In this document: positions 25,504 to 55,490 of the stretch, piece after piece
How the letters are laid out: each line of letters opens with the position of its first letter
How positions within the stretch are numbered: position 1 is the stretch's first letter
NCBI GenBank assembly: GCA_027487515.1
Contig: JAIYDL010000022.1
Coordinates: 1 to 64,000, forward strand
Source: Pseudomonadota bacterium
GTDB taxonomy: Bacteria; Bdellovibrionota; Bacteriovoracia; Bacteriovoracales; Bacteriovoracaceae
Direction: 5' to 3'
DNA: 64,000 nucleotides
Position numbers and translations under genes: made by a program
Notes under the pieces: model-generated
Seen by the model: only the letters and a program-made list of their open reading frames with translations
Told to the model about the DNA's origin: nothing
The model's database searches: none

Positions 25504-25533
25504 GACTAGGATCTAGTCGGTTGAGGGACCCTC
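25504..25533. promoter_or_regulatory. Two adjacent palindromes upstream of the aminotransferase-reductase fusion
   Basis: GACTAG-GAT-CTAGTC (25504-25518) and GAGGG-A-CCCTC (25523-25533) are both perfect inverted repeats placed four bases apart. They lie in the 269-base region (25318-25586) between two divergent units, which otherwise holds no gene. They look like operator sites for the gene at 25587 and argue against the alternative TTG start at 25521. Confidence 0.4.
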
Positions 25534-25586
25534 TGAACTGGAACCTCCCTCTTTGGCCGGCACGGACTTTGCTCCTAACTCCCACC

Positions 25587-29627: not shown

Positions 29628-30925
29628 GCGCGCCTCCGGAATCTCATTCTGATGTTGTTGACGGGCCTCAGACTTATCCCCGCTTCGTTGCGCTGGGGCC
29701 CGGGTTCGACGATCTCCCAGGTGAAATGCTGAACCAGACAAGCGAGAATGATCCGTGCCTCGAGGCCCGCGAAGTAGGCACCGATGCAAGCCCGAGGGCC
29801 AAGGCCGAACGGGTAGTAGGCCCCGGCAGGTATCTTCTTCCTTTCTTCCGGAAGAAAGCGCGCGGGTCTGAACTCCAGGGGCGAGTCCCAGAGGTCGGCC
29901 GAGCGGTGTGACAGAATCGGGGCCAGGACAACGTTGGCCTGCGGGGGAATCACCAGATCCCCGAGCTTATCTGCGACCTCTGCCTGCCGCATGAAGACCC
30001 AGACCGGGGGCCAGAGGCGCATGACCTCATCGAGGACGGCACCATGCCAAGGAGCCGTGTTAAGTTTCTCGAATTCGCGGTGCTGAAAGAACGCGAAGGC
30101 CTCGCGCTCTAACTCGGGCCGACACTCCGGGTGGGTTGCGACTTCGATCAGCGTGTAGGTCAATGAGTTGGTGATGGTCTCGTGCCCCGCCATCATGAAG
30201 GTCATGATCTCGTCTCGGATTTCCCGGTCGCTCATTTGGGCGGTCCCCTCCTCTTGTGCATCGACTAAGAGCTGGAGGAGATCTTGTTTTCGGGTGCCGG
30301 TCCGTCGCTCCTGGATGAGACCAAAAACATGCCGATCGAACTTCCCGATGATCTGTCGCAGTCGCCGGTGGTTGGCCGTCGGTACCCAAAATGGGAGCGG
30401 GATCGATGACCTCGTTTTCGCCGTGATGATGCGCATGAGTTCGAGGATCTCGTGGAGCCAGGCATCGAGCTCCGGGGTCGGCTCTTGGGAGAAAAGTGTC
30501 CGGAGGATAATCCTCCAGGTGAGCCTGTTCATTTGGTGGAAGCCATCGAGGTCCGCTTCCGCGTCTAATGACGGCAGAAAAGTTTCGACGGTCTCGAGCA
30601 TCTTCGGCGCAAGCTCAAAGACACTCCGGAGGTTCATCACCGGCCGGATCATCCGGTGCTGTTTGCGCCAGGATGCCCCTTCATTGGTGATGAGTCCGTT
30701 CCCTAAGAACCGCCGGAGCGCCTTGGTAGTGCGCCCCTTGGTGTACCCGGCGTTGTTCGTTTTGAGGACGTGGAGGACGTCCTCCGGGTGGCTCACGATG
30801 AAGAGCTTCTTTCCGAAAATCTCTAGCCGCGCTCGATGGCCCTGGGCCCGATGCAAATCTTGAACGAACCCTAAGGGGTCCCGCCGGTAGGCCTTCAAAG
30901 TCCGATACGATTTCAGCAGACTCAT
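29624..30925 (-). CDS. Cytochrome P450
   Basis: 433 residues, no membrane anchor, the length of a soluble bacterial P450. I-helix AGHETITNS (oxygen activation), K-helix EVMR (ExxR), and the heme loop FGLGPRACIGAYFA with the axial Cys. The I-helix and overall similarity to CYP102/CYP4-like sequences suggests fatty-acyl hydroxylation; no fused reductase or ferredoxin gene lies in the cluster. It overlaps the flanking genes by 4 bases on each side (ATGA), so it is strictly co-translated with the PEP-utilising enzyme and the GNAT protein. Confidence 0.93.
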   Translation of the reverse strand: MSLLKSYRTLKAYRRDPLGFVQDLHRAQGHRARLEIFGKKLFIVSHPEDVLHVLKTNNAGYTKGRTTKALRRFLGNGLITNEGASWRKQHRMIRPVMNLRSVFELAPKMLETVETFLPSLDAEADLDGFHQMNRLTWRIILRTLFSQEPTPELDAWLHEILELMRIITAKTRSSIPLPFWVPTANHRRLRQIIGKFDRHVFGLIQERRTGTRKQDLLQLLVDAQEEGTAQMSDREIRDEIMTFMMAGHETITNSLTYTLIEVATHPECRPELEREAFAFFQHREFEKLNTAPWHGAVLDEVMRLWPPVWVFMRQAEVADKLGDLVIPPQANVVLAPILSHRSADLWDSPLEFRPARFLPEERKKIPAGAYYPFGLGPRACIGAYFAGLEARIILACLVQHFTWEIVEPGPQRNEAGISLRPVNNIRMRFRRRA

Positions 30926-33318
30926 AGTACCTCTATCGTCCCTTTAACAGCGTCCAGTCGCAGCCGGTCGCCGGTCTTGATTTTCAGTGTCGCTCCTCGC
31001 ACGCCCACGACCGTCGGGATGTTCAGTTCGCGACCGATGATGGCCGTATGACTCAAGAGAGATCCCTTCTCAGACACCAGGCCCTTGCTCCGAGACATGA
31101 TGTACACCCAGGCGGGGTCAGTGTTCTTTGTGACTAGAATGAAGTCCTGAAACTCAGAAACTAAGACGTCGCGTGGGTTGTCGAGCACCAGAGCGATGCC
31201 CTCTGCGATTCCCGGCGACACCCCCTGACCCACAAGCTCCCCCTGGACCTGGGCCGCTGTGTGCTCCGGCAGAGGTTCCTCAGCGACCCAGGCCAGGACT
31301 TCCGGGTAGTGGCGCTTCTTCTCCTTCCACCCTCGACGATCCCGGATGCGGGCCCGGACTTCTTGGGTCGAGATCTTGCCGTCAGCGAACTCGAGCCACT
31401 CCTCGGTCGTGAGGGAGAAAAAATCGAGGAGGTCGAAGGCGCTCCAAGCGGGATCACTCTTCAGGAGCTTCCCGGCCAGAGCGAGCACCATTTGTCGGAT
31501 GAGATGGTAAAACTTCCCGCGCCAGAGTCGAGTGGCCTCCCGCACAGACACCGCTTCCCGGGTGTACCGCAGGATCCGGTTGCCGATGAATCCGAGATCC
31601 GGCTTCGCAGGGCGAGTTCCCGGGGCCTGAGTCCGAGGAGGATTCTTCTTACACCAGAGCATGAGGTCGGAGAGAAGCTTCGGGTTATTCCTCAGGGGAA
31701 GGCTCTCGAGCTTGAGCTCTTCAAAGGAGCGGTCCCCGTAGCTCAGGAGAAAACTTTCGATGAGGTTCACTTCGCGCGCGCGGCCCTGTGCCCGGAGCCT
31801 CTGAAAGATCTGCGCGTAGGGCTCGAGGCCAATGGAAAGATCTTGGGCGGCAAACTCCCGCAGGAAGTGTTCGTCGAGCTCCACGAGGAGCTGGTTGAAG
31901 TGCTCTAACGGTTTTACCGAGTCCACCCCGTCATCGGTCTTGAGTAAGTCGATGACTGTCTCCTCATCGAGGCTCATCGATGTCACTTTCCGCGTGAGAT
32001 ACCCAAGGCCCATCATGATGAAAATATCGTTCACCACCGTGAGCCCAAACCCGAGGGGACGGTTCGTGACCGCCACCAAGTAGCGGATCAGCTCCTCCGG
32101 ATTCTGCCGCGTCTTCGCCTCCACTTCGATCTCCCCTCGCAGTCGCTCGAGATCCGTAAGGAGCCGAGAAAAGATTGACCGGCGCCGGAGCATGATCCCG
32201 ACGAGGGCCCCCACAGTCCGGAAGCTTTCAGCCCGGGTGAGCTCGGTCTCATGATGCGGGATGCGAAGGTCGGCCACTTTTCCGCCGATCATCTTGTGCC
32301 AGTTCTCAATGTTCCTCTCGCCACCGGGAAGCGCTCGGAGAACGGCGTAGTAGTGCTCGAGGTTGTAATAAAGGTGGTTATCCACTTGGCTGATGAGTCG
32401 CGAATAGTGATGGTTAAGGGCCGCGAGCCGAGGGCCCCGGGCCCCCATGAGGACCGCCGACTCTCGGAAGACGTTCTGGTAGGCGGTCTTCACAAAAGCA
32501 GCTGTCAATGGGCTCACGGTCCCCGGGTAGGACTCAGACAGGTTCGTGTCAACGTAGTACACGAGGGGGTCAAAGCTCCGCGTGATGGGTCGAATCTGAA
32601 AGACAAAGAGCGTGCCCTCTTTAAGACCCCACTCAATGTCACTGGGAGCACCGGCCTTGGCCTCGAGCCCGAGGCTCAGCTTAAGTAGCACAGCGAGTTC
32701 GCTTTGCGAAAGAACCGGGGTCTCTCCGAAGATTGTGGACGTCACGAGTTCTCCCGTCCGTGCTAGCCGATACGTGTCTACGTCGGCGTGGCCAGAGACG
32801 ACCCCCTCACCCATCCCAAATGCTGCGTCGATCGCAACGGTCGCAGTCGGTGGGACTGGGGAGCGGGTAAAAAGAACGCCGCTCTTTTCCACCCGGACGA
32901 GCGCCTGAACCACGACGGCCATCTCGAGGTTGACCTCGAGCTTTTTATGGAAGACATACTCACGGACACGGTCACTTGAGAGCGACCGATAGACTTGATT
33001 GAGGGCCTCTTGCCAGCCCTCTTCACGGACATCGAGGATCGTGTCGAAGAGGCCCGCGAAGCTGGAGTCTGCGGCGTCCTCCGCGATCATGGAACTCCGG
33101 AGCGCGACCACCGGGTGGTCTCGGAAAAACTGCTGAAACCGTTCAGCAAGGTCCGGCGGAAAGCTACCGTGGTCCCGGAACCATCGGTAAGCCATCGTCG
33201 TGATAACGAAGAAGGGCGGGACCGGGGCATCCCAGGAAATGAGCCTCTGAAGCTGGTGCGCTTTTCCCCCGACGAACTCTTTCGGTGCGACGGGGACCAT
33301 TTCGGCCAAAAAACTCAT
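30922..33318 (-). CDS. PEP-utilising enzyme, PPDK/rifampin-phosphotransferase architecture (copy 1)
   Basis: 798 residues. N-terminal ATP-grasp part with VGGKAHQLQRL and VALRSSMIAEDAADSSFAG, then the DIEWGLKEGTLFVFQIRPIT end of the PEP/pyruvate-binding domain (about residue 250-265). A long central helical region (from ESYPGTVSPLTAAF on) corresponds to the substrate domain of RPH-type enzymes. The C-terminal phosphohistidine swivel domain has LLSHTAIIGRELNIPTVVG with the catalytic His. Such enzymes move the beta-phosphate of ATP via His to an acceptor; the acceptor here is unknown, plausibly an alcohol on the lipid intermediate. Paralogue at 39816. Overlaps both neighbours by 4 bases. Confidence 0.84.
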   Translation of the reverse strand: MSFLAEMVPVAPKEFVGGKAHQLQRLISWDAPVPPFFVITTMAYRWFRDHGSFPPDLAERFQQFFRDHPVVALRSSMIAEDAADSSFAGLFDTILDVREEGWQEALNQVYRSLSSDRVREYVFHKKLEVNLEMAVVVQALVRVEKSGVLFTRSPVPPTATVAIDAAFGMGEGVVSGHADVDTYRLARTGELVTSTIFGETPVLSQSELAVLLKLSLGLEAKAGAPSDIEWGLKEGTLFVFQIRPITRSFDPLVYYVDTNLSESYPGTVSPLTAAFVKTAYQNVFRESAVLMGARGPRLAALNHHYSRLISQVDNHLYYNLEHYYAVLRALPGGERNIENWHKMIGGKVADLRIPHHETELTRAESFRTVGALVGIMLRRRSIFSRLLTDLERLRGEIEVEAKTRQNPEELIRYLVAVTNRPLGFGLTVVNDIFIMMGLGYLTRKVTSMSLDEETVIDLLKTDDGVDSVKPLEHFNQLLVELDEHFLREFAAQDLSIGLEPYAQIFQRLRAQGRAREVNLIESFLLSYGDRSFEELKLESLPLRNNPKLLSDLMLWCKKNPPRTQAPGTRPAKPDLGFIGNRILRYTREAVSVREATRLWRGKFYHLIRQMVLALAGKLLKSDPAWSAFDLLDFFSLTTEEWLEFADGKISTQEVRARIRDRRGWKEKKRHYPEVLAWVAEEPLPEHTAAQVQGELVGQGVSPGIAEGIALVLDNPRDVLVSEFQDFILVTKNTDPAWVYIMSRSKGLVSEKGSLLSHTAIIGRELNIPTVVGVRGATLKIKTGDRLRLDAVKGTIEVL

Positions 33319-34190
33319 AGGAGGGCACCGACGAGAAGCACTGACACCACGAGGAGGATCTGCGCCTCCGCGATGGGTTTTAGGGGCCGCGGTAACCGAA
33401 GGGTCACCAGAAAATGCACCGCCGGGAACACGAGGCCTGCCTGGATGAGGAGGAAGGCCCCACGGAGCAGTCCCGGAGTCGAAAGTTTTTCAAAGATCGC
33501 AAGGACGGCCAGAGTATAGACGAACTGGAGGACAAGGGCGATCATGACCGCGGTTCTTGGGCCAAAAATTTTTGAGTAGGTCGTATACGAGTCCTCTTGC
33601 TCCGGCGCCCGGATCTTCCGAACGAGCTCCCAGTTCGTGAAGATCAAGCAGATCGGGAGGATGAATCCGATGCTCGAAAAGGTAACTCGCGGATCCACTT
33701 CCGTGCAGGCCAAAACGAGGTAGGTAAAGTTGAACAGGACGATGGGGTGGTGTGACGCGAAGGCAAGCGGGAGACTCTTTCGCATCCGCGCTTCGATGAA
33801 AAACCACTTCAGCATGAGGTACGTGAATCCAAGAGTGACCAGTGCCCACAGGAGGAGCGTTAGTGAGGTGAGGCTCAGAAACACCACCATGAAGACACAG
33901 AAAAAACCCAGCGCCCGGAGATCGGTGATCAGGACTCGCCCAGAAGGCAGCGGTCGCTTCGGGAAATTGATGAGGTCATCTTGGTAGTCCTTGAACTCAT
34001 CCATCACTCGGATCAGGAGCGAAATGAAAGCGAGAACGAGCCCGGGCACCACGAGGGAGAGGATCGAACTGCCCCGGACATCGTACAGCCGGAGGTAGGT
34101 CAACTGAACGGCGACTGCCGTGAGAATTGACCCCACGAATGACGAAAGGGGGAACATCTCATTGAGGTACACAAAGACACGCTTAACCAT
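33315..34190 (-). CDS. UbiA-family membrane prenyl/aryltransferase
   Basis: 291 residues, about eight to nine TM helices. First Asp-rich motif: RVMDEFKDYQDDLINFPKRP then LPSG, the UbiA signature including the RPLPSG end. The second motif lies in KIRAPEQEDSYTTYSKIFG. Members couple a polyprenyl diphosphate to an aromatic ring, a glycerol phosphate (archaeal DGGGP synthase) or a sugar. The neighbouring CarS-like gene points to a lipid rather than quinone role (inference). It lies 8 bases after the CarS-like gene and overlaps the PEP enzyme gene by ATGA. Confidence 0.85.
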   Translation of the reverse strand: MVKRVFVYLNEMFPLSSFVGSILTAVAVQLTYLRLYDVRGSSILSLVVPGLVLAFISLLIRVMDEFKDYQDDLINFPKRPLPSGRVLITDLRALGFFCVFMVVFLSLTSLTLLLWALVTLGFTYLMLKWFFIEARMRKSLPLAFASHHPIVLFNFTYLVLACTEVDPRVTFSSIGFILPICLIFTNWELVRKIRAPEQEDSYTTYSKIFGPRTAVMIALVLQFVYTLAVLAIFEKLSTPGLLRGAFLLIQAGLVFPAVHFLVTLRLPRPLKPIAEAQILLVVSVLLVGALL

Positions 34191-34198
34191 ATCAATTC

Positions 34199-34756
34199 CT
34201 AAAGAGGGTTCTTCCGAAGACCCGCTCCGTAAAGGGCCACATTAATGAGGAGATGAAGGACCGTGCCGAAGCCGACGGCCAGCGCCATCGTTTCCATACT
34301 GATGGGAAACAGGAGTCGGTACGCCAGAAGGCAGCCGAAGGCAGAATCTGCCTGATCGAGGATGACGAAGAACCACTTGTACCGGTCCGACGTTTGACCT
34401 TCCCGGATCCCCAGACGTCGCTTCACGAAGGAGTTGGGTAATTCGGCGAGGCAGTACCCGAGTCCGAGGAGCACCGCAACCAGAAGGGTGGAGTGGTTGC
34501 GAAATAGCGGCTCATTTAACTCAAATAAGGGCTCCACGGACTTTGCTAAGAAGACTCCGGGCCACGTGGCCAAGGGCATTACGAGAAAGCCACGCCAGGT
34601 TTTGTTTTGTCCGAACCACCTTTGATGTATGGGCTTCTTAAAGTAAGATAGGATATCCGCCTTAACCGCAACCATATGCACGACGCCTCCGACGATGAGA
34701 GGGATCGTGAGTAAGAACACACGGCTAAATTCGTGGACGGCGAAACCTGGATTCAT
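34199..34756 (-). CDS. CDP-archaeol synthase-like (CarS family) membrane protein
   Basis: 185 residues, about five TM segments. Family marks: GQNKTWRGFL (CarS GDGKTWRG), LPNSFVKRRLGIREG (CarS GSFIKRRLGL) and DQADSAFG (CarS DQLDFVxGA). Archaeal CarS transfers CMP from CTP to the phosphate of unsaturated archaetidic acid; bacterial members are poorly characterised. The catalytic GD of the GDLxGSF motif is replaced by AE (AELPNSF), so metal use may differ. First gene of a five-gene operon. TATAAT ends six bases before the ATG and no SD is seen, and the divergent permease start is only 11 bases away. Confidence 0.76.
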   Translation of the reverse strand: MNPGFAVHEFSRVFLLTIPLIVGGVVHMVAVKADILSYFKKPIHQRWFGQNKTWRGFLVMPLATWPGVFLAKSVEPLFELNEPLFRNHSTLLVAVLLGLGYCLAELPNSFVKRRLGIREGQTSDRYKWFFVILDQADSAFGCLLAYRLLFPISMETMALAVGFGTVLHLLINVALYGAGLRKNPL

Positions 34757-38615: not shown

Positions 38616-39833
38616 ATGAAGTACTTAGTCTCGGCCATTCTTCTAAGCCTTGCTCCCCTCGCCGTTCGGGCCGGGGACGCGGAACTCTCCGGCAACCTCG
38701 AGGGCCAGTTCCGGAACGCGACGAATAACGATGAGGCTAAGAAATCTCCTCTCTTCCAGGACTGGGATAACGAAAACTTCTTTCTCATCTATGGGAACGT
38801 GAATGCGAAGGTCGACCTCGGAGACTCGCGGTTCGAGGCCAACTGGTTCGGTCGCCACGGGAAATCTCCGCTGTACGAGCCAGAGCCTTTCAGCGCCCAA
38901 GGGACCCCGCGTGATCCCTACCTCGCGACGAGCGTTTTCACCTTCCCGCAGCGGCTCGTGGCCCGGGACATCTTCCAGCTTCAGCACGTTGACCAGCGGG
39001 GTGACCAGAGGACTGAGTCCGTGCTGAACAAGATCTACTACGAGTGGGAATACGCCGAACACCGGATGATGGTGGGCCGGATGTACGTCAACTATGGTCT
39101 GGGAGAAATCTTTAATCCGTTGAACCCCTTCAACCAACCCACCGGCCTCACGGCGATTTCTCAAGTGGCGCAAGGGAACGACGGATTCTCCCTAACCTAC
39201 TTCGTCGACGACTTCCACACGATTCAGTTTCTCGTTCTGGGAGATAAGCGCATCGAGGGGTACGATGGCAGCATCAATCGGACACTGTGGATGCACGGCG
39301 AGTACCAGGTCACTGAGAAGTTCCAGCTCGACTACGTCTTGGGCGAGGACCAGAACCGACGGAAAGCGGGGGGGCAGATGAGCTACCAGTTCGAAGATGC
39401 GCTCGTGTTCACGCAGGTCCTCTACCAGTCTGCGAGCGTAGAGGACGAGCCTTCCCACGACCTTTTGGACGCGCTCCTCGGGTACGACCAACAGATCACG
39501 GGCATCTGGCACGTGCGATTCGAGGGCGGCTACCAAAAGACCAATCGCTTTGCGACCGCGACGAACTTCGATCGGTTCTTGCCGACGGAATACTTCGGGG
39601 CCCTCGCCAACGTGCTCGAGGTTCATCCCCTCTTAAAGCTGAGCGGGACTCTCATTCACGATGTGAAATCAGGGTTCAGCTACGCCGTGGCCAAGGCAAC
39701 TTTCAGCGCCACCAAAAGCACGGAGCTCGAGGCCTTCGGCTTCAGCCCCATCTCCCGCGGGGATGAAGCGGACAATCTGGCGCAGAAACTTGTGACGCAA
39801 GATCTTGGCGTCGCCCTACGGGCCTTTTTCTAG
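38616..39833 (+). CDS. Outer-membrane beta-barrel of the export module
   Basis: 405 residues. Signal peptide MKYLVSAILLSLAPLAVRA, then strand-rich sequence with a large predicted barrel, many Tyr/Phe/Asn, ending in the barrel signal LGVALRAFF. The central motif MMVGRMYVNYGLGEIFNPLN resembles the R-x-x-x-x-W-G core of DUF1302/porin-like proteins that accompany lipid exporters. It probably completes the ABC-carrier-outer-membrane route for the cluster's product (inference). The last 18 bases overlap the convergent PEP-utilising enzyme gene. Confidence 0.8.
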   Translation: MKYLVSAILLSLAPLAVRAGDAELSGNLEGQFRNATNNDEAKKSPLFQDWDNENFFLIYGNVNAKVDLGDSRFEANWFGRHGKSPLYEPEPFSAQGTPRDPYLATSVFTFPQRLVARDIFQLQHVDQRGDQRTESVLNKIYYEWEYAEHRMMVGRMYVNYGLGEIFNPLNPFNQPTGLTAISQVAQGNDGFSLTYFVDDFHTIQFLVLGDKRIEGYDGSINRTLWMHGEYQVTEKFQLDYVLGEDQNRRKAGGQMSYQFEDALVFTQVLYQSASVEDEPSHDLLDALLGYDQQITGIWHVRFEGGYQKTNRFATATNFDRFLPTEYFGALANVLEVHPLLKLSGTLIHDVKSGFSYAVAKATFSATKSTELEAFGFSPISRGDEADNLAQKLVTQDLGVALRAFF

Positions 39834-42119
39834 GACCTCCACCACTCCCGTTTTTCCGTTCATCTTAATCAGGTCACCGTCGTTGATGAGCTTCGTGGCG
39901 TCGATGAGGTTCAGGATGGCCGGGATGCGGTACTCGCGGCCGATGACTGCGGCGTGAGACAAGAGTCCACCCACCTCAGTGATGACCCCGCCAACGCGAG
40001 CGAGAACCGGCGTCCATCCTGGGTCCGTGAAAACCGTGACGAGGATCTCCTCCCTGGTGAGGCCCCCCGTTTGATGGATGTCAAAGATGACCCGAGCTCG
40101 GCCAGTGACCTCCCCAGGACTACAGCCCAGACCCTTGAGGTCTCCGGACCCCGACGCTTTGGCGGCCTGGATCCTCCCACCGAATTCATTCGGTGGCGTA
40201 AACATTCGGTAGCCTTCGTAGTACTGCCGCCGGCGCCGCGTCTCCGGAAGCGGAGCGCCGGACAGGGCCCGGGCGACCTCCCGGACGTCGAGCATGAAGG
40301 CGTCGATCTCCGAGAGGCCGCGGCGCCGGGCGAATTCGAGGAGACCCAGGCGCAGAAGGTAGTAGGCCCGCGTCGAGTACGACCGCATTTCCTCCCGGAG
40401 TCGGAGGAACTCGCGAGAGGCTTCCGTGCGTCGTTCAAAAAGTACTCGAGCTAGGGGCCCGAGGTTTCTTCGGATCCGGTCGAAGGTCAGTTCATAGCGG
40501 TTCTCACCGCCCTCCTTCGTCGGCAGATAGCTTCGAACCAGATCGTCGACCCAGTCCTTGCGCTCTCCCCAACGCGCGACCCGGAGATCGAGCTCGGCAG
40601 GGCCGTGGTGATAATGGTCCGCGAGAAAATTTTCACGTTCGCGGTGATACGCTTCCGATCCTAGGCCGTGGTGTTCCGCCACAACCCACAACTTCCCAAG
40701 GCCCGCCTGGACGTCGAGGTGGGCGACGCCCCGGAGTTCGCTCATCAAGTCAACCTCGTCTCCGAGTTCGTAGCCGGGAAGTTTCTTGAGCTGGCCCTTG
40801 TACTCCGTTTGGTAATTCGAATTATTGTAGATCGTCCGGAAGTAGCTCTTCTCCGTTTGGTTTTGGAAGCGGATTACCTCAGAAAACCAAGCTTCGAAGT
40901 CGCGGGTCGGCATCGAGGGCAGTCGTGGAAGTTGAGCCTTTAGCGCGCGGTCATCGCCCTCGAAAGTCTGCCGGAAGTGCCGGATCATGTTCCGGCAATC
41001 GAGGAATTCCGAGTTCAGTCCGATCAGAACGGGGATGGCGCCGACGACCGACGCCACGGAGACCGGAGTGTGCGCGGGCCCGGCCTCGCCGTAGTCTTTT
41101 TGAACTCCGATGTCGCGGTCGAAGTCGGCTTCTTTAAAATCCGGGAGCTTCTTCAGGCCATCCTTCACTGCCCCGGCGTTCCAGTAAACTCGGCCGTAGT
41201 GGTAGACGATCCAGTCCACCGTTTCGTCGTTCGAAATGAGCCGAACTTTCTTTAAGTACTCACCCATCGAATACTGAAGCGCGTCCCGGTAAACGGAGAA
41301 CATGAATGGCGTGCAGACCCGCGCCGAAACACCCCCGTCCTTGAAGTCCGCGTTCGTGAGCTCGGGAGAATCGGTTCGAGGCAGGAACGTCGTGACTGGC
41401 CGGGACTGGAGGATGTAGACCTTTCCATCTAGCCCGATCGCCCACTCTATGTCCTGGGGCGACCCATAGTGCGCCTGGATCCGCGCGGCGAGCTCCACGA
41501 GTTCCGAGAGTTGTTCGGACGTGATCCGCGTGCCTTCAGCGTTGACGGACTCTCGGATCAGGCGATCGGAGATCCAGTCGTAGACGATCGCCGTGGGTGT
41601 GACGTGGCCCGAGACGAGGCGCTCCCCGAGACCAGCACAGAGTTCGATGTACATCTCCTCCTCGTGACCGTTGAGAGGATTGATGGTGAAAAGAACCCCG
41701 GCGGTCACCGCCGGAACCATCTTCTGCACGAGGACACTCATCCGCAGGGACTCCGGAGTCCACTCAATCCCTCTCGTTTCAAGGTAGTCACGCACTCGTG
41801 AAGAGTCGCGAGACGCGAAGCACTCAAGGATCCGGGACTCGAGGTCCGTCAGAGAGGAGACGTCGAGGAATGTTTCGTACTGGCCCGCGAAGCTCGCGTC
41901 GCCGAGGTCCTCGAGGCTTCCGCTCGAGCGCACGGCAACGGGGAATCCTCCGAGCAGAGCGACATCGGCCAGACTCACCGGCGCGGGCTTCTCGAGCACG
42001 AGTCCTCGAGGAACGGGAAATCCGGCCAGAAGCAGTTCGTGTAACTTCTGCGCCTTCCCTCCAAACTGCGAGGTCGTCTTTGGGTCAAGCCCGGGGTTGC
42101 CTAGATAAAAGTGAGTCAT
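39816..42119 (-). CDS. PEP-utilising enzyme, PPDK/rifampin-phosphotransferase architecture (copy 2)
   Basis: 767 residues, paralogous to the gene at 30922 over its whole length. ATP-grasp part with FGGKAQKLHELL, VAVRSSGSLEDLGDASFAG and DIEWAIGLDGKVYILQSRPV; long central helical domain; C-terminal swivel domain with LLSHAAVIGREYRIPAIL and catalytic His. Central domains of the two copies differ much more than the ends, which suggests different acceptors. TAGAAT ends six bases before the ATG, with AGGAG between. Stand-alone minus-strand gene inside the cluster, convergent with the barrel gene, divergent from the radical SAM operon. Confidence 0.84.
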   Translation of the reverse strand: MTHFYLGNPGLDPKTTSQFGGKAQKLHELLLAGFPVPRGLVLEKPAPVSLADVALLGGFPVAVRSSGSLEDLGDASFAGQYETFLDVSSLTDLESRILECFASRDSSRVRDYLETRGIEWTPESLRMSVLVQKMVPAVTAGVLFTINPLNGHEEEMYIELCAGLGERLVSGHVTPTAIVYDWISDRLIRESVNAEGTRITSEQLSELVELAARIQAHYGSPQDIEWAIGLDGKVYILQSRPVTTFLPRTDSPELTNADFKDGGVSARVCTPFMFSVYRDALQYSMGEYLKKVRLISNDETVDWIVYHYGRVYWNAGAVKDGLKKLPDFKEADFDRDIGVQKDYGEAGPAHTPVSVASVVGAIPVLIGLNSEFLDCRNMIRHFRQTFEGDDRALKAQLPRLPSMPTRDFEAWFSEVIRFQNQTEKSYFRTIYNNSNYQTEYKGQLKKLPGYELGDEVDLMSELRGVAHLDVQAGLGKLWVVAEHHGLGSEAYHRERENFLADHYHHGPAELDLRVARWGERKDWVDDLVRSYLPTKEGGENRYELTFDRIRRNLGPLARVLFERRTEASREFLRLREEMRSYSTRAYYLLRLGLLEFARRRGLSEIDAFMLDVREVARALSGAPLPETRRRRQYYEGYRMFTPPNEFGGRIQAAKASGSGDLKGLGCSPGEVTGRARVIFDIHQTGGLTREEILVTVFTDPGWTPVLARVGGVITEVGGLLSHAAVIGREYRIPAILNLIDATKLINDGDLIKMNGKTGVVEVLEKGP

Positions 42120-42332: not shown

Positions 42333-43757
42333 GTGCAGACATTTAATCTCCTAGAACGCTTCAATCTCCGGGCCGTCAAAGGACTTAACTTTCTTAAGCC
42401 CCGTGAACTCTGCTACGTCCGCGTGATCTCCCTCGTTGACCTGACAGCGATCGACGCTGGCGTCATTTCCGAAGCTGCCAAGCACTCCTCGATGACCTTC
42501 GTTTCTTTTCCGATCGAAGAGATCAACCAAGCCGAGAAAGTCCGTGCCGTCATCCAGCTGGGGATCAGAGGGTTCGCGCTCCGGGCCAGCTACGATGACA
42601 AGAAGTTCCTCCACCATGACCGAAGAGGCCCCGAGCGCTCCGGTGACCTGGATCTCATCGCCAAGGTTGAGCAGTTTCGGCGAGAATATCCTGACGTCGA
42701 GGTGGTGGTTGAGTTCCAGCTCCGGCCCGACCTGCGCATCCTCGCGCCGACCATCGCGCGGCTTTACGAAGAGGGAATGCGGTGGGTTGTCCTGAACGCC
42801 GAAGGCGTGCCCGATAAGCTGCGAACATCGAGCTTCCGGGAAGTCTTCGAGTACCTCAGGATCCGGAGCTGCAACTACCTGAACGTCTACTTCCCCTTTT
42901 GGAATCCGGAATTCCGCGAATGGGACATCAAAACTCAGAACACGTTCTCGGGCCTCTTCGAAGTCCACATCGACATCTCGAACCGCTGCACGCACAGCTG
43001 CACGTTCTGCGGTCTCTATGGCCCCGCGGCCATCGAGGACATCAAGAAAGACAACGGCGGTAAGCTCAGTCCCCAGGTGAACGAGTTCATGAAGATGGAG
43101 ATCGACTCCGAGCACTGCCACCGGATCATCGAGAGCTTACCCTGGAGCGTTCGACTGGTGCAGTTCGGCGGCGCCGGCGATCCACTCATGCACCGAGACG
43201 CGGTGAAGTTCATCGGCGCCGTTCGCAGTCGGGGCTTCCGAGTGAGCGTCCTTTCGAACATGGAGTATCTCGGAGAAGAGGATATCCTCGAACTCCATCG
43301 ACTCAGTGGCCGAAAAGATGAGCTCCATTTCATCGCCAATGTCTCGGCCGGGACTCCGGAGCTGTACGTCGAGACGAGGCCTCGGCAAACCGAAAAAACC
43401 TTTGAACGCGTGGTCTCGGTGCTCGATCGGTTCAGCACTCTCCGAGAGACCAGCACCGACGGGAGAGGAGTCTATTTCACTGTCATGTGCGTGGTCACCT
43501 CGATTAACTGCCGCTCGCTCCTTGATGTGGCCAAGCTCTCCGTGAAGTTGCGGGCCCAGAAACTGTGGTTCAAGCCCATGGAGCTTCACGCGAATTTCCA
43601 GGCACCTCTGGTACCAAGTGGTGATACGATGATGCGAGACATGGCCCGCTCCCTGAAGGCCGCAGCGGACTATGCCCTGGCCCACGGAGTTGAACTGGAG
43701 CAGCAAGAGTACTGCGACCAAATCTTCGAGCGCTACTTGGGAGAAATGCATGTCTGA
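42333..43757 (+). CDS. Radical SAM enzyme with a long N-terminal domain (locus 1)
   Basis: 474 residues. The first about 205 residues form an extra alpha/beta domain (YVRVISLVDL, VEVVVEFQLRPDLR, MRWVVLNAEG) like a half barrel. The radical SAM core follows with HIDISNRCTHSCTFC (C219, C223, C226), the GGE-like FGGAGDP and GFRVSVLSNMEYL. A SPASM-type auxiliary-cluster region is not fused; it is supplied by the next gene. Substrate unknown. Start is GTG with AGAGG four bases upstream. The stop overlaps the SPASM gene by 8 bases (CATGTCTGA). The close paralogue is at 53471. Confidence 0.86.
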   Translation: MQTFNLLERFNLRAVKGLNFLKPRELCYVRVISLVDLTAIDAGVISEAAKHSSMTFVSFPIEEINQAEKVRAVIQLGIRGFALRASYDDKKFLHHDRRGPERSGDLDLIAKVEQFRREYPDVEVVVEFQLRPDLRILAPTIARLYEEGMRWVVLNAEGVPDKLRTSSFREVFEYLRIRSCNYLNVYFPFWNPEFREWDIKTQNTFSGLFEVHIDISNRCTHSCTFCGLYGPAAIEDIKKDNGGKLSPQVNEFMKMEIDSEHCHRIIESLPWSVRLVQFGGAGDPLMHRDAVKFIGAVRSRGFRVSVLSNMEYLGEEDILELHRLSGRKDELHFIANVSAGTPELYVETRPRQTEKTFERVVSVLDRFSTLRETSTDGRGVYFTVMCVVTSINCRSLLDVAKLSVKLRAQKLWFKPMELHANFQAPLVPSGDTMMRDMARSLKAAADYALAHGVELEQQEYCDQIFERYLGEMHV

Positions 43758-44133
43758 CCTCGTGAAAAAAGTTCCCCAGGACCTTACCGTTGATGAAGTC
43801 CGGATCGGCGTCGCCAATGGGGATGTCCCCGCGAACCTTTACTCAGAGATTCCGTGCACCATAGGCCACTCCTACATCCGGTTCGAGGTCTCCGGAAACA
43901 TCGTCCCTTGTTGCATCGCCAAGCACCGGATCGGCGATGTCAAAAAAAATGATTGGCGCGACGTCTGGCACTCCGGCGCCTACGATTCCTTTCGCCGGAA
44001 AATGTCCCGGATCCATCTCGATCGGTTTCATCTGGTAGACCCCGAATGGACCTTCTGCCAACAGTGCAGCCACGTGCCTTTGAACCAGACCAACGCAGAC
44101 CTCCTCCGCAAAGGCCGTCAGGAAGAACCATGA
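43750..44133 (+). CDS. Stand-alone SPASM-like Fe-S domain protein (locus 1)
   Basis: 127 residues. Five Cys in a SPASM/twitch order: C36 (IPCTIG), C54-C55 (IVPCCIAKHRIGD) and C103, C106 (WTFCQQCSH), with the linking RFEVSGN and DWRDVWHSGAYDSFRRKM typical of SPASM domains that follow radical SAM cores. Here it is a separate polypeptide whose start lies inside the rSAM gene end (8-base overlap), so it probably binds the rSAM protein in trans and brings an auxiliary [4Fe-4S] cluster. Its end overlaps the next gene as ATGA. Paralogue at 53101. Confidence 0.8.
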   Translation: MSDLVKKVPQDLTVDEVRIGVANGDVPANLYSEIPCTIGHSYIRFEVSGNIVPCCIAKHRIGDVKKNDWRDVWHSGAYDSFRRKMSRIHLDRFHLVDPEWTFCQQCSHVPLNQTNADLLRKGRQEEP

Positions 44134-45497
44134 AAAAATCCAGCGAAGTCCGTGACGAACTCAACGCCGTTTCCCCAAGCTTCTGTTTGGCGAAGTGGCT
44201 CCAAGTGACCATCCACCTCCAGAACGGACACACGCACTCCTGCCACCATCCCATGACCCATAAAGTCTCCCTCGATGAGCTCGCCTATGATCCGTCGGCG
44301 CTTCACAACACCAGCGAGAAAAAAGAGTACCGGAAGCAGATGCTCGAGGGCACCAGACCGAAGGAATGCCAGTACTGTTGGAACATCGAAGACGCGCACC
44401 CGGACAACTTGAGCGATCGCACGTTTAAGTCCGCCGATGACTGGGCCTACACCCGGCTCGGAGAAATCTCCACCGCTCCCTGGGATCGGTCGGTGAACCC
44501 CGCCTACATCGAAGTGAGCTTCGGGAACGAGTGTAACTTCAAGTGCGCCTACTGCGCCCCGCACATTTCCTCGGGCCTCATGACGGAGTACCTGAAGCAC
44601 GGTCACTACTCAGGCATGCCCCAGTTCTCCCTCGATAACATCCGGGACCTCGGTCAGTTTCCCTATTCCAAAGACGAGCACAATCCCTACGTCGACGCGT
44701 TCTGGAAGTGGTGGCCAAGTGCGAGCAAGGACCTCAAAACGTTCCGGATCACGGGCGGAGAACCACTCCTGAACCCGAACACCTACCGGTTCTTCGAGTT
44801 CCTTCGACAGAACCCCATGCCGGACCTGAGTCTTGCGATCAACAGTAACCTCGGAATCCCGCGCGGGACGCTCGACAAGTTCATCCGCGAGGTCAAGTAC
44901 ATCACCGACCACAAGCTCATCAAAGACTTCCAGTTTTTCACGAGCGTCGACACCTACGGGAAGAACGCCGAATTCATCCGGTTTGGCCTCGACTACGACG
45001 AGTACATGGAGAACGTGAAACTCTTCCTTCGGGAAGTCCCGCAGGCCCAGCTCATTTTCATGTGCACCTACAACGCCTTCTCCGTCTTGAACTTCCGAAA
45101 ATTCCTCGATCAAGTGATCGAGCTCAAGCGCGCCCATAAGAACGAATGGAACTACACGAAAGTGTTCCTCGACACTCCGTACTTGAAGGACCCGCGGTTT
45201 CTCTCGTGCTACGTCTTAACCGAGGACTTCTGGCCCGTGGTCCGCGCAGACCTCGAGTACATGAAACAGTTCGCCGTCGGCGACGCCCCGGGGGATGCGC
45301 TCTTCTACGAGCACGAGGTCAGCAAGTTCGAACGGATCCTTAACTGGCTCGAGAATCTGGAAGAAAGCATGCACCGGCAAGGCATGCGCCGGACGCTCTA
45401 CGACTTCATTCAGGAGTACGAGGACCGGAAAGGGATCCGCTTCCACGACTACTGCCCCGAGTACGCCGCGTTCTACGAACTATGTAAGTACAGCTGA
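44130..45497 (+). CDS. Twitch-domain radical SAM protein
   Basis: 455 residues. N-terminal twitch-like Cys set C19 (SFCLAKW), C38 (HSCHHP), C80 and C83 (ECQYCWN) precedes the radical SAM motif CNFKCAYC (C135, C139, C142); FRITGGEPLLN is the GGE loop. This N-terminal placement of the auxiliary cluster is the mark of the N-twitch rSAM family. Substrate unknown. It starts by ATGA overlap with the SPASM gene, so the three form one translation-coupled unit. The frame is open from 43953 upstream, but ATG 44130 fits the overlap. It shares 18 bases with the convergent gene. Confidence 0.86.
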   Translation: MKKSSEVRDELNAVSPSFCLAKWLQVTIHLQNGHTHSCHHPMTHKVSLDELAYDPSALHNTSEKKEYRKQMLEGTRPKECQYCWNIEDAHPDNLSDRTFKSADDWAYTRLGEISTAPWDRSVNPAYIEVSFGNECNFKCAYCAPHISSGLMTEYLKHGHYSGMPQFSLDNIRDLGQFPYSKDEHNPYVDAFWKWWPSASKDLKTFRITGGEPLLNPNTYRFFEFLRQNPMPDLSLAINSNLGIPRGTLDKFIREVKYITDHKLIKDFQFFTSVDTYGKNAEFIRFGLDYDEYMENVKLFLREVPQAQLIFMCTYNAFSVLNFRKFLDQVIELKRAHKNEWNYTKVFLDTPYLKDPRFLSCYVLTEDFWPVVRADLEYMKQFAVGDAPGDALFYEHEVSKFERILNWLENLEESMHRQGMRRTLYDFIQEYEDRKGIRFHDYCPEYAAFYELCKYS

Positions 45498-46436
45498 CGA
45501 TCCCGGAAAGAGTGCCTGGAGCTGCTCGTTCTCGCGTACCTCATCGAACCCTGGCCTCAGTACCGCCCGGACCTTCGTGAGGCGTGAGAGGTGCTCGAGC
45601 ATCTGCTGGGCCTGGCCCCAGGGCCGCTGGCAGTAGAGACCCCAAACCTCCCAGGCAATCTGGCGCTCGATCAGCGAGCGCTCGTCTGGGGTGAGCCCCT
45701 CCAAAAGTTTCCGATCCTCCGCTTCGCGGTCATGGTGAAACCAGAGGTAGAGATGCGGCGCGAGGATCCGAAAGCCGCCGCCGAGGTCTGCGTGATACAC
45801 ATCGAACTCTGGCTTCCGCGCCTCTTCAAGCCAGCGGCCCAGGGATTCCGGGAGTTCTGGCCGCGACGGGAGGAGGCCCCCTAGCACCTGAATGATCGTC
45901 TCCGTTGTGATTTGCTCCGCAGGTGTGTTGAGACCCGTGAGCTCAAGGTGGTGTCGCCATTTCTTTTGGCGAAGCCAGGGTTCTCCCTGAAGCGTAAAGG
46001 CATCGGAGAAAAACATCCGCTGCAGGAAGATCAGTTTCTCAATCCGATCCACTGGAGCTGCGGACTGTGTGAGCGACTCCAGCACTGGGTCCCGGCGCAG
46101 CTCAAAGGAATTCATCCGAGGCACGAGCTCTGCGAGATCCTTCAAGAGGTAGACGTTCGCTTCTCCGAGAAACGGAAGCACGCGCTTCGCCGTGCCGAGA
46201 GTTCGCAACAGAGTTGACGTGGGCAATTCCTGATCCGAGAGCACGGTGACATCGAGGTCACTGACACCGAAGACAAACGTTCGTGCACGGACACTGTTCC
46301 GATCCCAAACCTTAGTCCCTGGCCCCAGGAGAAGCTTGAGGAGAACCCGCAGGATGAGAAGGCCCGTGACGTATGGGAGTATGGCGATGCACCGGGGAAG
46401 AATCTGGTCCAGGCGGTGAAAGTCATTCTTTTTCAT
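45480..46436 (-). CDS. Nucleotidyltransferase-superfamily-like protein
   Basis: 318 residues. Near the N-terminus a hydrophobic stretch (about 17-38) is followed by FVFGVSDLDVTVLSD, i.e. G57-x-S59-D60-x-D62, the hallmark G-S-x-D-x-D of the DNA polymerase beta-type nucleotidyltransferase fold. The remaining 250 residues are helical and carry no motif I can name. Could transfer a nucleotide or act as a degraded member; role in the cluster unknown. TATACT ends exactly six bases before the ATG with no SD. Convergent 18-base overlap with the twitch rSAM gene. Confidence 0.62.
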   Translation of the reverse strand: MKKNDFHRLDQILPRCIAILPYVTGLLILRVLLKLLLGPGTKVWDRNSVRARTFVFGVSDLDVTVLSDQELPTSTLLRTLGTAKRVLPFLGEANVYLLKDLAELVPRMNSFELRRDPVLESLTQSAAPVDRIEKLIFLQRMFFSDAFTLQGEPWLRQKKWRHHLELTGLNTPAEQITTETIIQVLGGLLPSRPELPESLGRWLEEARKPEFDVYHADLGGGFRILAPHLYLWFHHDREAEDRKLLEGLTPDERSLIERQIAWEVWGLYCQRPWGQAQQMLEHLSRLTKVRAVLRPGFDEVRENEQLQALFPGSSAVLT

Positions 46437-51851: not shown

Positions 51852-53111
51852 TCACTGCTTCGGCAACGCGATCCTGAGGGATACCATGTTCCCCTGATAC
51901 GGTACGAGGAGAAGGTGTCCAGGCCGTCCGGGAATTTTCTGGGCAGCGTAGTAGGTTTCACGCAGGAGTTTAGGGAGACACTGACTGATGTCTCGGTACC
52001 CTGATCGATCGCGGTAGATCATCCGGGTGTGGAAAGCAGGGGCCTTTTTCTTCGGATCCCGGAGGATGCTTCTGACCTGGGCCAGGATCACTTTCACTCC
52101 TGAACCAAGCGAGACATCTTCGAGGGAATGAACATACCCCTCGGCACTTGGCTCCGGAGAAAGGGGGAGCTCATGGTCACTGAACCGGAGGACTCCAGAT
52201 TGGGATTCGTTCCGGTATACGACGATCTTCCAACGGTGAAAACCGAGGTCATGGACCGCAGTCAAGAGATCGGGTTTCCCGTCATCATTCTCATCAAAGG
52301 TTTTTGCAAAGACAGTTCCCCAGGATCGAGAGTCTCGTCTAGGAGGAATGGTCTCAAGGGGAAGGAGAATGAATCGACCCTTCCGCTGTGTGAGAATCCG
52401 GTCATGGGCCTGTTCGGGTTTCGGGTTCGGAGTATCGCAGCCTCCAAGAAACAAGTCCCGCACTCCGTCTCGATCGAAGTCTTCAGCAAGGGCGGTCATT
52501 AAGCAGAGCTTATTCGGACCCAGGTCTGAGGGCAAAAGGTTCGATCGGTCGACCCAGTTCCCTTTTTCAAGCGCGAAGAAAAAAGGACCTCTCCCGAACA
52601 CGTTGGCCTTGTAGATTGCGGGCGTTCTACCGAAGCTGAGGGCCGCGAGATTGAACGTGAAGTCCTTCCCTAGCGCTTTTGATCGCTGGTCATACTGCCA
52701 CTGGCCCTTCACTTTTCTTAGCACTATTGGAGCAGCTCCTGGATACGGGGGCTTATCTGTGCCATGGTCCGCGATAACGATTTCCGGCACAGAATCGCCG
52801 TCGACGTCTTCCATGAGCATGTGGCGAGCATGCTGAGTCCGCGGCAATTTTTCTGAAGCCTTAGAATCATAACTCCATTTTCCGTTCACAAGAGTATACA
52901 TCGCTAGTGGAGCATCGACGGAGGAGGAGCTAGGAAAGTTGCTGACTAACACTTCACGTGGTCCAGTGAAGATGAAATCTGTCGGGCCGAAAGTCGGACT
53001 CCGATGGACCGGACTCTCCGGAGTCAATGACAACGTCACGGGGCAGGTCGCAGAAGCGACCAGCGGAAAGAAGGCTGCAGCCGAAAGCCAGCGCCGAGGG
53101 CTAGTCATCAT
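51852..53111 (-). CDS. Secreted FG-GAP/VCBS-repeat protein
   Basis: 419 residues. N-terminal signal peptide MMTSPRRWLSAAAFFPLVAS followed by several integrin-like repeats; three Asp-rich Ca2+-binding loops are clear: DVDGDSVPEIVIADH, DFDRDGVRDLFLGG and DENDDGKPDLLTAVHD. The fold should be a beta-propeller exported to the periplasm or surface. It is the last gene of the operon with the rSAM/SPASM pair (starts 11 bases before the SPASM stop), so it could be the substrate or a partner of that system (inference). No SD is apparent, so it depends on coupling. Confidence 0.82.
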   Translation of the reverse strand: MMTSPRRWLSAAAFFPLVASATCPVTLSLTPESPVHRSPTFGPTDFIFTGPREVLVSNFPSSSSVDAPLAMYTLVNGKWSYDSKASEKLPRTQHARHMLMEDVDGDSVPEIVIADHGTDKPPYPGAAPIVLRKVKGQWQYDQRSKALGKDFTFNLAALSFGRTPAIYKANVFGRGPFFFALEKGNWVDRSNLLPSDLGPNKLCLMTALAEDFDRDGVRDLFLGGCDTPNPKPEQAHDRILTQRKGRFILLPLETIPPRRDSRSWGTVFAKTFDENDDGKPDLLTAVHDLGFHRWKIVVYRNESQSGVLRFSDHELPLSPEPSAEGYVHSLEDVSLGSGVKVILAQVRSILRDPKKKAPAFHTRMIYRDRSGYRDISQCLPKLLRETYYAAQKIPGRPGHLLLVPYQGNMVSLRIALPKQ

Positions 53112-53478
53112 TTTTTTTCAGGAGCTCATTTTTCCGTTGGTTCTGATCTAGGTGGCTGCACTGTTGGCAGAAGGTCCACTCGGGATCCGTCAGGTGGAAG
53201 CGATCCACGTGAATGCGCGCCATCTTCTTTCGAAAATTTTCATAGGCGCCGGAGAACCAGATATCACGCCAGTCTTGATCGTAGACGCTGCCAATCCGGT
53301 GCTTGGCGATGCAGCAGGGGGCAATATCTCCACTTACCTCAAACCGCAAATAGTTATACCCTATCACGCAGGGAGACTCGCTGTAGAAACTTGCTGGAAT
53401 GCTTCCATTGACCACTTCAAGTTTGATCTCCGCCGTTTCAACGGGGACTGAATTCGTTTTCTTTGTAAGCTCAGACAT
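53101..53478 (-). CDS. Stand-alone SPASM-like Fe-S domain protein (locus 2)
   Basis: 125 residues, paralogous to the protein at 43750: C37 (SPCVIG), C55-C56 (IAPCCIAKHRIGS), C104 and C107 (WTFCQQCSH), with RFEVSGD and DWRDIWFSGAYENFRKKM almost identical. Starts at the ATG inside the rSAM gene end (8-base overlap, CATGTCTGA), exactly as in locus 1. The open frame to 53691 is only the antisense/other-frame extension through the rSAM gene. Likely binds an auxiliary cluster for the radical SAM partner in trans. Confidence 0.82.
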   Translation of the reverse strand: MSELTKKTNSVPVETAEIKLEVVNGSIPASFYSESPCVIGYNYLRFEVSGDIAPCCIAKHRIGSVYDQDWRDIWFSGAYENFRKKMARIHVDRFHLTDPEWTFCQQCSHLDQNQRKNELLKKNDD

Positions 53479-54898
53479 GGACCGAGGCTCCTGAATACTT
53501 TCTGATGATTTCTTCACAGATTGGTCGTTGGAAGATGTTAACTCCACACCCATCGGCGTAGGCGATCGCGTCCGAGTACGCCCGGGCCATGGCCACCATG
53601 AGGTCTTCGCCGGGCACGTAAGACCGGTGCGGTTCTCCATGGATCTCCATGGGCTTGAACCACACCTGCCAGGCACCCACTTTCTCTGCAAGCTTTACGA
53701 CATCGAGAAGTTCGAGGCAGTTGAGTCGGTTCACAACACACATGATCGTCGTGTGGGCTCCGGCACCAGAACTCTTGTTACGAAGGTCGCTGAAAAGACG
53801 GAGGTTATTCACGACTTTCTCGAATGTTTTCTCGCTCTGCCGCGGCCTCGTTTTCACATAGAGTTCCGGCGTTCCGGCCGAAACATTCGCGATGAAATGA
53901 AACTCATACCAATTGCGAGTGCCAAGCCGATGGAGCAGCAAAATGTCATCGTCGTTGAGGTACTCCATGTTCGAGAGGACCTCCACCGCAAATCCGCGGC
54001 GACGGGCCGCCGCGATGATGTCGACGGCGCTTTCGTGCATGAGAGGGTCACCGATGCCGCCGAACTGAATCATGTGAACGGACCAGGGAAGGCTCTTGAT
54101 AATCCCAAGGCACTTTTCTGCATCGATCTCCATTTTCATGAGATTCTTCAAGGGCTCTGGGAGGGTTCCACCAGAGCGCTTCTTCATTTCATCGATTGAG
54201 TCTGCGCCATAGAGTCCACAAAAAACGCAGCTATGAGAGCAGCGATTCGAGATATCAATGTGAACGATCTCAAGCCCGGAGAACGTGTTCTGCGTCTTCA
54301 GATCCCACTCCGGCATTTCTTGTTTCCAAAACGGGAAATAGACATTCAACCGGGTTGGACCACGGATCTTCAAATACTCAATGACATCCCGGAACTGCCG
54401 GAAGCGCTCACTCGAGGCGGATCCCAGAGGATTCAGCACAACCCAACTCGCCCCGAATTGATGCACGCCCATGATCGTTGCTCCGAGCACCCGCGTATCG
54501 TCTTGAACCTGAAACTCGACCGTCAGAAACCGGTCCACAGGAAATGATGACCGGATTTGGTGGAATCTTTCGATGAGGTCTCGGTCACCGGAATGAATCT
54601 GACCCAGCCCATGTTGCTGCAACCAGCGCTCCGGACGATGGGTCATGCGGACGGCGATTCCATGGACCCCAAGACGGAATAAACCCTGAACCAGAAGAAG
54701 GTCATCGACCTCTTCCTGGGGAATTGAGACCACAACTTTAGAGCTAAGACTCGCGGCCTTAGTCACTAATGAGCGGAGCTCATCACTCAATGTTCGAAGT
54801 GAAGGTATCCGCAGGTAGAGGAGCTCGTCTGGTTTTAACAGATCGATGGCCTTGTGATCGACGAAATCTCCGGGCGCTCCGATGTCGAGACTTTTCAT
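53471..54898 (-). CDS. Radical SAM enzyme with long N-terminal domain (locus 2)
   Basis: 475 residues, paralogous along its whole length to the gene at 42333. N-terminal alpha/beta domain (about 1-205) then HIDISNRCSHSCVFC (C220, C224, C227), FGGIGDPLMH and VLSNMEYLND. Shared strings such as TQNTFSGL, GTPELYV(K/E)TRPRQ and FKPME mark the pair. Substrate unknown. AAGG lies seven bases before the ATG. It is the second gene of the operon ComM-like, rSAM, SPASM, VCBS protein. Confidence 0.86.
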   Translation of the reverse strand: MKSLDIGAPGDFVDHKAIDLLKPDELLYLRIPSLRTLSDELRSLVTKAASLSSKVVVSIPQEEVDDLLLVQGLFRLGVHGIAVRMTHRPERWLQQHGLGQIHSGDRDLIERFHQIRSSFPVDRFLTVEFQVQDDTRVLGATIMGVHQFGASWVVLNPLGSASSERFRQFRDVIEYLKIRGPTRLNVYFPFWKQEMPEWDLKTQNTFSGLEIVHIDISNRCSHSCVFCGLYGADSIDEMKKRSGGTLPEPLKNLMKMEIDAEKCLGIIKSLPWSVHMIQFGGIGDPLMHESAVDIIAAARRRGFAVEVLSNMEYLNDDDILLLHRLGTRNWYEFHFIANVSAGTPELYVKTRPRQSEKTFEKVVNNLRLFSDLRNKSSGAGAHTTIMCVVNRLNCLELLDVVKLAEKVGAWQVWFKPMEIHGEPHRSYVPGEDLMVAMARAYSDAIAYADGCGVNIFQRPICEEIIRKYSGASVHV

Positions 54899-54935: not shown

Positions 54936-55490
54936 TCAGGACCGGAGTCCAGTTTTGAAATGCTCCGTTTCCCTTGTGAGTTCCTTCGCTTTAAACTCGA
55001 GACGCGCACTCAATCCAAAGAGATCTCTTCCATCGATAACTCTACTGTAAGTTTCGGCCGGAGACGACGAGGTGATGAGGTTGAGACCATGCACTTCACA
55101 GAGCTGGGCGATGGCGGGTCCAAATGGTTCCTCGACGATTCCCCCTGGATTAAGAGCGCCAATCGCAAGGCAATTGTCGAGAGTTGTGATCGGGAGCAGC
55201 CCGGCCAGGAACCAGTAATGGAGCAAAAACGGGTACTCAAGCCAACGGACACTGGCACCCTCAAGGCCACCGAGTTCGTCTCCGAGCTCAACGTTAAGAA
55301 CGAAACGCTTCATGGGGACTGGAAGACCTCGTGAGCGAGTAACGAAGACAACTTTTTCCTTGATTCCACGACCGTACTTGCCCAAACCGTTGATCTCTAG
55401 CCCGGGGACACTTTTGGTTGCGTAACCGAAGAGAGAAACTAAGACGGGTCCTTTCTTTGTGATGTAGCAGCTTTGAAGTTGTGTTTCCAT
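54936..55490 (-). CDS. Stand-alone ComM/ChlI N-terminal (S5-fold) domain protein
   Basis: 184 residues. Aligns with the N-terminal domain of ComM/YifB Mg-chelatase-like proteins: VSLFGYATKSVPGLEINGLG corresponds to their VEVHISKGLPGLTMVGLP, VPMKRFVLNVELGDEL to YPAKKITINLAPADL, and LDNCLAIGALNPGGIV to LDEYELVGELALTGALR. The AAA+ ATPase and C-terminal domains are missing and there is no frameshift, so it ends naturally. Its role in an operon with radical SAM genes is unknown. AGGAGG lies about six bases upstream of the ATG; 37 bases separate it from the rSAM gene. Confidence 0.75.
   Translation of the reverse strand: METQLQSCYITKKGPVLVSLFGYATKSVPGLEINGLGKYGRGIKEKVVFVTRSRGLPVPMKRFVLNVELGDELGGLEGASVRWLEYPFLLHYWFLAGLLPITTLDNCLAIGALNPGGIVEEPFGPAIAQLCEVHGLNLITSSSPAETYSRVIDGRDLFGLSARLEFKAKELTRETEHFKTGLRS

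Follow-up and report, generated by a model that had tools for sequence, protein, structure and literature searches.

Paired genes for a radical SAM protein and a detached Twitch-domain protein, putative subunits of one enzyme, in two loci of a bacterial genome

Within the 64,000 nucleotides of DNA analysed here (hereafter the window), two gene pairs each encode a radical SAM protein ('core') followed by a small protein carrying a Twitch-type domain, and each pair probably specifies one two-subunit radical SAM/Twitch enzyme, the catalytic subunit of which also possesses a TIM-barrel-like N-terminal domain. Gene structure, domain content, cysteines, selection, fused relatives and co-occurrence can be read directly from the sequences; from these we infer complex formation, cluster binding and a redox role, and the putative heterodimer is well supported, if indirectly.

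Two gene pairs and their domains

The features of both loci are collected in Table 1. Open reading frames and Pfam searches confirmed what the initial annotation had described, namely a radical SAM protein of 474 or 475 residues followed at each locus by a small protein of 127 or 125 residues. Radical_SAM scores above its cut-off in both cores, neither of which gave a SPASM match in the Pfam search, and both small proteins, which are almost nothing but a SPASM/Twitch-type domain, pass the gathering score of PF13186. The host genome holds exactly two cores and two small proteins, all in these two loci; identity between the paralogues is 52% for the cores, measured over the matched part, and 61% for the small proteins, and the interpretation of the loci as paralogous two-gene units is supported. 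The GTG start of core 1 lines up with the ATG (methionine) start of its orthologue.

Table 1 Features of the two gene pairs and their immediate neighbours in the window
Feature	Positions	Strand	Details
Catalytic subunit, copy 1 (core 1)	42333..43757	+	474 aa radical SAM; PF04055 E 6.9e-9
TIM-barrel-like N-domain of core 1			Residues 1-205, radical SAM barrel about 206-470; based on models
CxxxCxxC motif, copy 1	42987..43010	+	CTHSCTFC, residues 219-226
Detached Twitch subunit, copy 1 (small 1)	43750..44133	+	127 aa; PF13186 E 1.6e-9
SPASM/Twitch domain, copy 1	43855..44067	+	C36, C54, C55, C103, C106
8-nt overlap, copy 1	43750..43757	+	ATGTCTGA; GGGAG Shine-Dalgarno upstream
N-terminal-twitch radical SAM protein	44130..45497	+	455 aa; NF033640 E 4.9e-92, above cut-off
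FG-GAP beta-propeller-like protein	51852..53111	-	419 aa; PF13517 E 3.9e-8; HxR...DHGxD motif
Detached Twitch subunit, copy 2 (small 2)	53101..53478	-	125 aa; PF13186 E 6.6e-10
8-nt overlap, copy 2	53471..53478	-	ATGTCTGA; AGGAG Shine-Dalgarno upstream
Catalytic subunit, copy 2 (core 2)	53471..54898	-	475 aa radical SAM; PF04055 E 1.3e-8
CxxxCxxC motif, copy 2	54218..54241	-	CSHSCVFC, residues 220-227

When a pair was linked as a single chain, AlphaFold2 returned a confident radical SAM barrel for core residues of about 206-471, which Foldseek matched to SkfB, DesII, BlsE, NifB and viperin, while the Twitch part stayed unfolded (pLDDT about 30). The best structural rows for the barrel (SkfB, DesII and BlsE) have Z scores of 15-17, and residues 184-460 of the core model superimpose on SkfB as a partial TIM barrel (Z 16.6, r.m.s.d. 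3.3, 208 residues aligned). Membership of the radical SAM superfamily is indicated by PF04055 together with CxxxCxxC, a motif present in every family member that covers the region. Residues 1-205 of the core, folded alone, gave a mean pLDDT of 81 and a TIM-barrel-like model (Z 11-12 against homocitrate synthases and designed barrels), a predicted fold that points to no firm function. The signature of the family comprises CTH[S/N/D]CxFC and GGxGDP in the core and C...CC...CxxCxH in the Twitch protein.

The cysteines of the small protein occur in the order previously noted (C36, C54C55, C103xxC106), spaced as C36-x12-G49-x4-C54-C55 ... C103xxC106, and all five are kept across split and fused relatives. 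The SPASM motif has seven cysteines, CX9-15GX4C-gap-CX2CX5CX3C-gap-C, the first four of which illustrate the truncated Twitch type (PMC6231123). Only these first four positions are present in the small protein, which lacks the last three cysteines and is Twitch-like because of the four plus the extra C55; a complete two-cluster SPASM domain is ruled out by the cysteine count. The domain, earlier described as SPASM-type, is Twitch-like with one expected cluster and not a full SPASM domain. Searched against solved structures, the profile of the small family finds significant sequence similarity only in the Twitch region of BtrN (E 2e-5). In NCBIfam the small proteins score best against the twitch portion of NF033640 (E 7.7e-5 and 3.6e-6), and hhalign gave no significant match between the small family and the N-twitch radical SAM family. 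A survey of PF13186 in 38 genomes placed the matches in reading frames of about 250-520 residues with two groups of exceptions, seven members of the detached Twitch family and one 45-residue frame at a contig end. Apart from the latter, this family provides the only SPASM match in frames shorter than 200 residues, so detachment is a property of the family and not of SPASM proteins generally in these genomes.

In the proposed enzyme, a [4Fe-4S] cluster held by CxxxCxxC in the partial TIM barrel of the large subunit would cleave SAM to yield a 5'-deoxyadenosyl radical, and the TIM-barrel-like domain that precedes this barrel probably binds the substrate or helps in docking. The small subunit, as a Twitch domain, would be expected to hold one auxiliary Fe-S cluster via C36, C54/C55, C103 and C106 and to dock at the usual C-terminal Twitch position adjoining the active site, where its cluster may accept electrons or anchor the substrate in the way proposed for BtrN.

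BtrN, SkfB and MoaA, the Twitch radical SAM enzymes, have the same partial TIM barrel with CxxxCxxC and a one-cluster Twitch domain; here, by contrast, Twitch is a separate protein, and the core begins with an extra TIM-barrel-like domain (about 205 residues) that differs from the RRE of SkfB. With the SPASM enzymes anSME, PqqE and SuiB (PF13186), the small proteins share a match above the gathering cut-off, but they lack the last three of the seven cysteines and the domain is detached. LipS1 and LipS2 are two cooperating polypeptides that together perform the single lipoyl synthase reaction, carried out elsewhere by one radical SAM enzyme (PMC10332631); both are radical SAM enzymes, whereas the small subunit here has no SAM domain. 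In NF033640 (N_Twi_rSAM), an operon neighbour in the window, twitch is fused at the N-terminus; neither the cores (19.6 and 31.8 bits) nor the small proteins (22 and 26.3 bits) reach its cut-off of 170 bits, and scores against TIGR04317 (tungsten cofactor oxidoreductase radical SAM maturase) are 34.6 and 49.2 bits, below the cut-off of 380. The GeoRSP SPASM protein (TIGR04304) is encoded as the partner of a radical SAM/SPASM protein, but its model spans 293 positions and describes no isolated domain, as against 125-127 residues here, and the host genome gave no match to it at E 0.001.

No Twitch or SPASM enzyme whose cluster domain forms a separate subunit has, to our knowledge, been described, and a literature search of partial coverage returned nothing relevant on SPASM/Twitch subunits that stand alone or on radical SAM enzymes of two subunits. 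To remove the auxiliary cluster from an ordinary enzyme one has to mutate the protein; if the cluster resides on a subunit of its own, with fused relatives as controls, it could be added, omitted, swapped or titrated while the catalytic subunit stays intact. The catalytic role of SPASM/Twitch auxiliary clusters has been called long elusive or largely enigmatic (PMC9012708, PMC10470005).

Split and fused relatives

Profiles of each protein were searched against 368 genomes of the phylum, and the loci were then inspected. The search for detached SPASM proteins beside radical SAM cores, which the initial annotation had proposed as a check, found the family in about 20 genomes, a strong core match being present in 20. 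Split pairs occur in the host genome (two), G012 (two), G007, G010, G002, G142, G064, G065, G066, G071 (two), G072, G247 and G348. Five genomes have fused forms in one reading frame: G069 (585 residues), G062 (533), G351 (551), G131 (616) and G129 (380, cut by the contig end); the cores of G110 and G140 are also cut by contig ends. C-terminal fusion of the auxiliary domain to the core is absent from the window and from all intact loci of its genus.

The two proteins correspond to successive parts of the fused form, the core profile aligning with columns 9-443 of the fused profile (E 2.6e-91) and the Twitch profile with columns 464-564 (E 1e-38), and the same fused NCBIfam models are hit by both, each in its own section (for example, TIGR04317 at 6-181 and 272-307). 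All 18 genomes with a strong Twitch match also have a core, and the two core genomes that lack a strong Twitch match both have cores cut by contig ends. Divergence of core and Twitch is correlated (Mantel r 0.88, 0 of 2000 permutations, fused rows included), a value that also reflects species relatedness. Fused relatives, perfect co-occurrence and congruent divergence thus support the view that the domain, detached yet encoded next door, would partner the adjacent radical SAM core.

An AU test rejected the fused forms as a single clade (p 2e-7), and at least four fusion or fission changes fall on the tree when the distant outgroup is left out; the fused forms of G062 and G069 nest in a genus whose other pair-bearing members are split. 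The Twitch domain has therefore proved fusible and separable repeatedly inside one family. Because support is weak for several branches of the tree and certain rows are long, the direction of individual events is not claimed. Placing the two window pairs and their G012 orthologues in one clade gave p 0.25. In G007 and G010 a single pair occupies the site of the window's second pair, beside a pfkA-like gene, and in G010 the PEP-synthase-like/N-twitch site is present without a pair; the second site is accordingly the one occupied in more species. Neither core relatives in viral contigs and plasmids nor Twitch relatives in phages were found. In G348 a distant fused radical SAM/SPASM paralogue (L104:5007-6635, +) directly precedes the split pair.

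In both window pairs the overlap ATGTCTGA sits within CATGTCTGA, and its identity had been taken to show duplication of the two-gene unit instead of independent splitting. The overlap is indeed the same in both pairs and 8 nt long in all four pairs of the host genome and its nearest relative, G012, but it is common only to these two species: G007 and G010 have a 17-nt overlap, G348 and G247 a 4-nt ATGA overlap, and G002, G064, G066 and G071a small gaps. The 8 nt arise because the conserved start M-S-[D/E] (ATG TCT GA.) creates a TGA in the other frame; being set by the conserved N-terminus and varying in sister species, the overlap is weak evidence, and the conclusion of duplication holds on other grounds, all seven intact loci of the genus being split.

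Strong purifying selection acts on all four genes, whose dN/dS against the G012 orthologues is 0.06 in the cores and 0.02-0.03 in the small proteins (synonymous sites being close to saturation); such ratios together with the recurrence of the family in about 20 genomes indicate that these are not chance reading frames. That the split is an artefact, whether of sequencing, of a recent frameshift mutation or of programmed frameshifting that yields one fused product, might be suspected from two frames overlapping by 8 nt and from the existence of fused relatives, yet is barely credible: every one of the genus's seven intact loci is split, several further genera share the arrangement, the junction varies between overlaps of 8, 17 or 4 nt and a gap, each small-gene start in the window has its own Shine-Dalgarno site (GGGAG or AGGAG), and dN/dS is at most 0.06. 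As far as sequence can decide, differing junctions, separate ribosome-binding sites and purifying selection rule out a recent or programmed frameshift. The initial annotation had cautioned that a fused nearest relative, recently broken by a frameshift, would speak against its reading; with fused forms in other genera only and none found in the window's genus, purifying selection on both halves and their own Shine-Dalgarno sites, this is not the case here. On the evidence of these comparisons the split dates far back in the window's genus.

Neighbouring genes and alternative readings

The N-twitch radical SAM gene overlaps the gene of small 1 by 4 nt, and its family occurs in 92 of the 368 genomes, among them all 20 with a core (p 2e-13, shared ancestry ignored). 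At the second locus, the start of the propeller gene overlaps the stop of the small 2 gene. Propeller relatives with HxR...DHGxD adjoin the pair in ten loci, seven with the propeller gene immediately 3' of the Twitch gene and three with it next to the core. A core is present in 14 of 17 propeller genomes (p 3e-18), a figure that is partly circular because the propeller profile was built from pair loci; outside profile building, four of seven propeller genomes have a core (p 2e-4). Six core genomes have no propeller. A 353-residue frame upstream of the G142 core was dropped as a propeller candidate as it lacks the shared motif.

Neighbours of the relatives include glycosyltransferases, a carbamoyltransferase, GDSL-type proteins and an ABC-2 exporter and point weakly to envelope chemistry; no glycosyltransferase, carbamoyltransferase, GDSL-type or ABC-2 gene adjoins the pairs in the window itself. 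Since relatives adjoin such genes, a cell-envelope glycan, lipid or nucleotide-sugar precursor is our tentative guess at the substrate, the recurrent propeller protein being the other, more doubtful candidate.

Counting against the two-subunit reading are the unfolded Twitch part of the model, the arrangement in G072, where the Twitch gene lies with a propeller gene on the opposite strand, apart from the core, and a G071 core (L100:6475-7860, +) with intact CTHSCVFC and GGxGDP and no Twitch gene within 14 kb. The small protein could instead be a dissociable, ferredoxin-like carrier, a module shared by the core and the N-twitch radical SAM protein without being a fixed subunit of either. The N-twitch gene's presence in every core genome, often next door, would suit such a carrier, as would the three cores against two Twitch genes of G071 and the separately encoded Twitch gene of G072. 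We nevertheless consider it rather unlikely: 72 genomes have the N-twitch protein, which possesses a twitch domain of its own, without any core; the small protein was never seen fused to it, whereas core-Twitch fusions lie at separate places in the tree; and every genome with a strong Twitch match has a core. A related reading makes the Twitch subunit exchangeable and regulatory, a free auxiliary-cluster protein common to several radical SAM cores that would dock reversibly; this we regard as unlikely, and equally so its extension, in which cluster supply would switch the reaction or its outcome within an assembly with the N-twitch protein and the propeller.

Adjacency to Twitch genes or cores, and the co-occurrence given above, might also mean that the small protein serves the FG-GAP propeller, for example as a maturation or docking factor, and that the core acts on the propeller as a protein substrate. 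Such a role is quite improbable given the six core genomes without a propeller, the lack of any propeller in the fused core-Twitch proteins and the signal sequences found on some propellers and not others. The two-subunit radical SAM/Twitch enzyme remains our preferred reading.

Several further genes of the window may be recorded. A 318-residue protein (45480-46436, -) with the nucleotidyltransferase-like motif GVSDLDVTV and no Pfam match has homologues near the radical SAM cluster in other genera, one of them inside a 779-residue fusion with a twitch radical SAM protein (G071 L099:3667-6003). The gene at 39816-42119 (-), kept beside the N-twitch radical SAM gene in G010 and G012, encodes a PPDK_N and PEP-utiliser protein whose best NCBIfam match, RedH/PigC, is far below cut-off. 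Adjoining the second pair is a 184-residue protein (54936-55490, -), an arrangement kept in G007, G010 and G012; it gave no Pfam match and resembles a free-standing version of the domain found at the N-terminus of ComM/Mg-chelatase-like proteins.

A gene run at 28497-34756 (-) encodes a 431-residue protein of unknown type, a cytochrome P450 (E 1.8e-65), a PEP-synthase/PigC-like ATP-grasp and PEP-utiliser protein, a weak match to UbiA prenyltransferases and a CDP-archaeol-synthase-like protein, a combination that hints at isoprenoid or ether-lipid-like chemistry, here in a bacterium. A 993-residue protein with a class III aminotransferase domain (25521-28502, +) has PigE as its best NCBIfam match (275 bits against a cut-off of 850), and sub-threshold PigC/RedH matches lie in the same window (30925-33318 and 39816-42119). 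Finally, a 348-residue fusion (61458-62504, -) joins a P-loop kinase-like domain (AAA_33, with a weak Zeta-toxin match) to a GNAT acetyltransferase domain.
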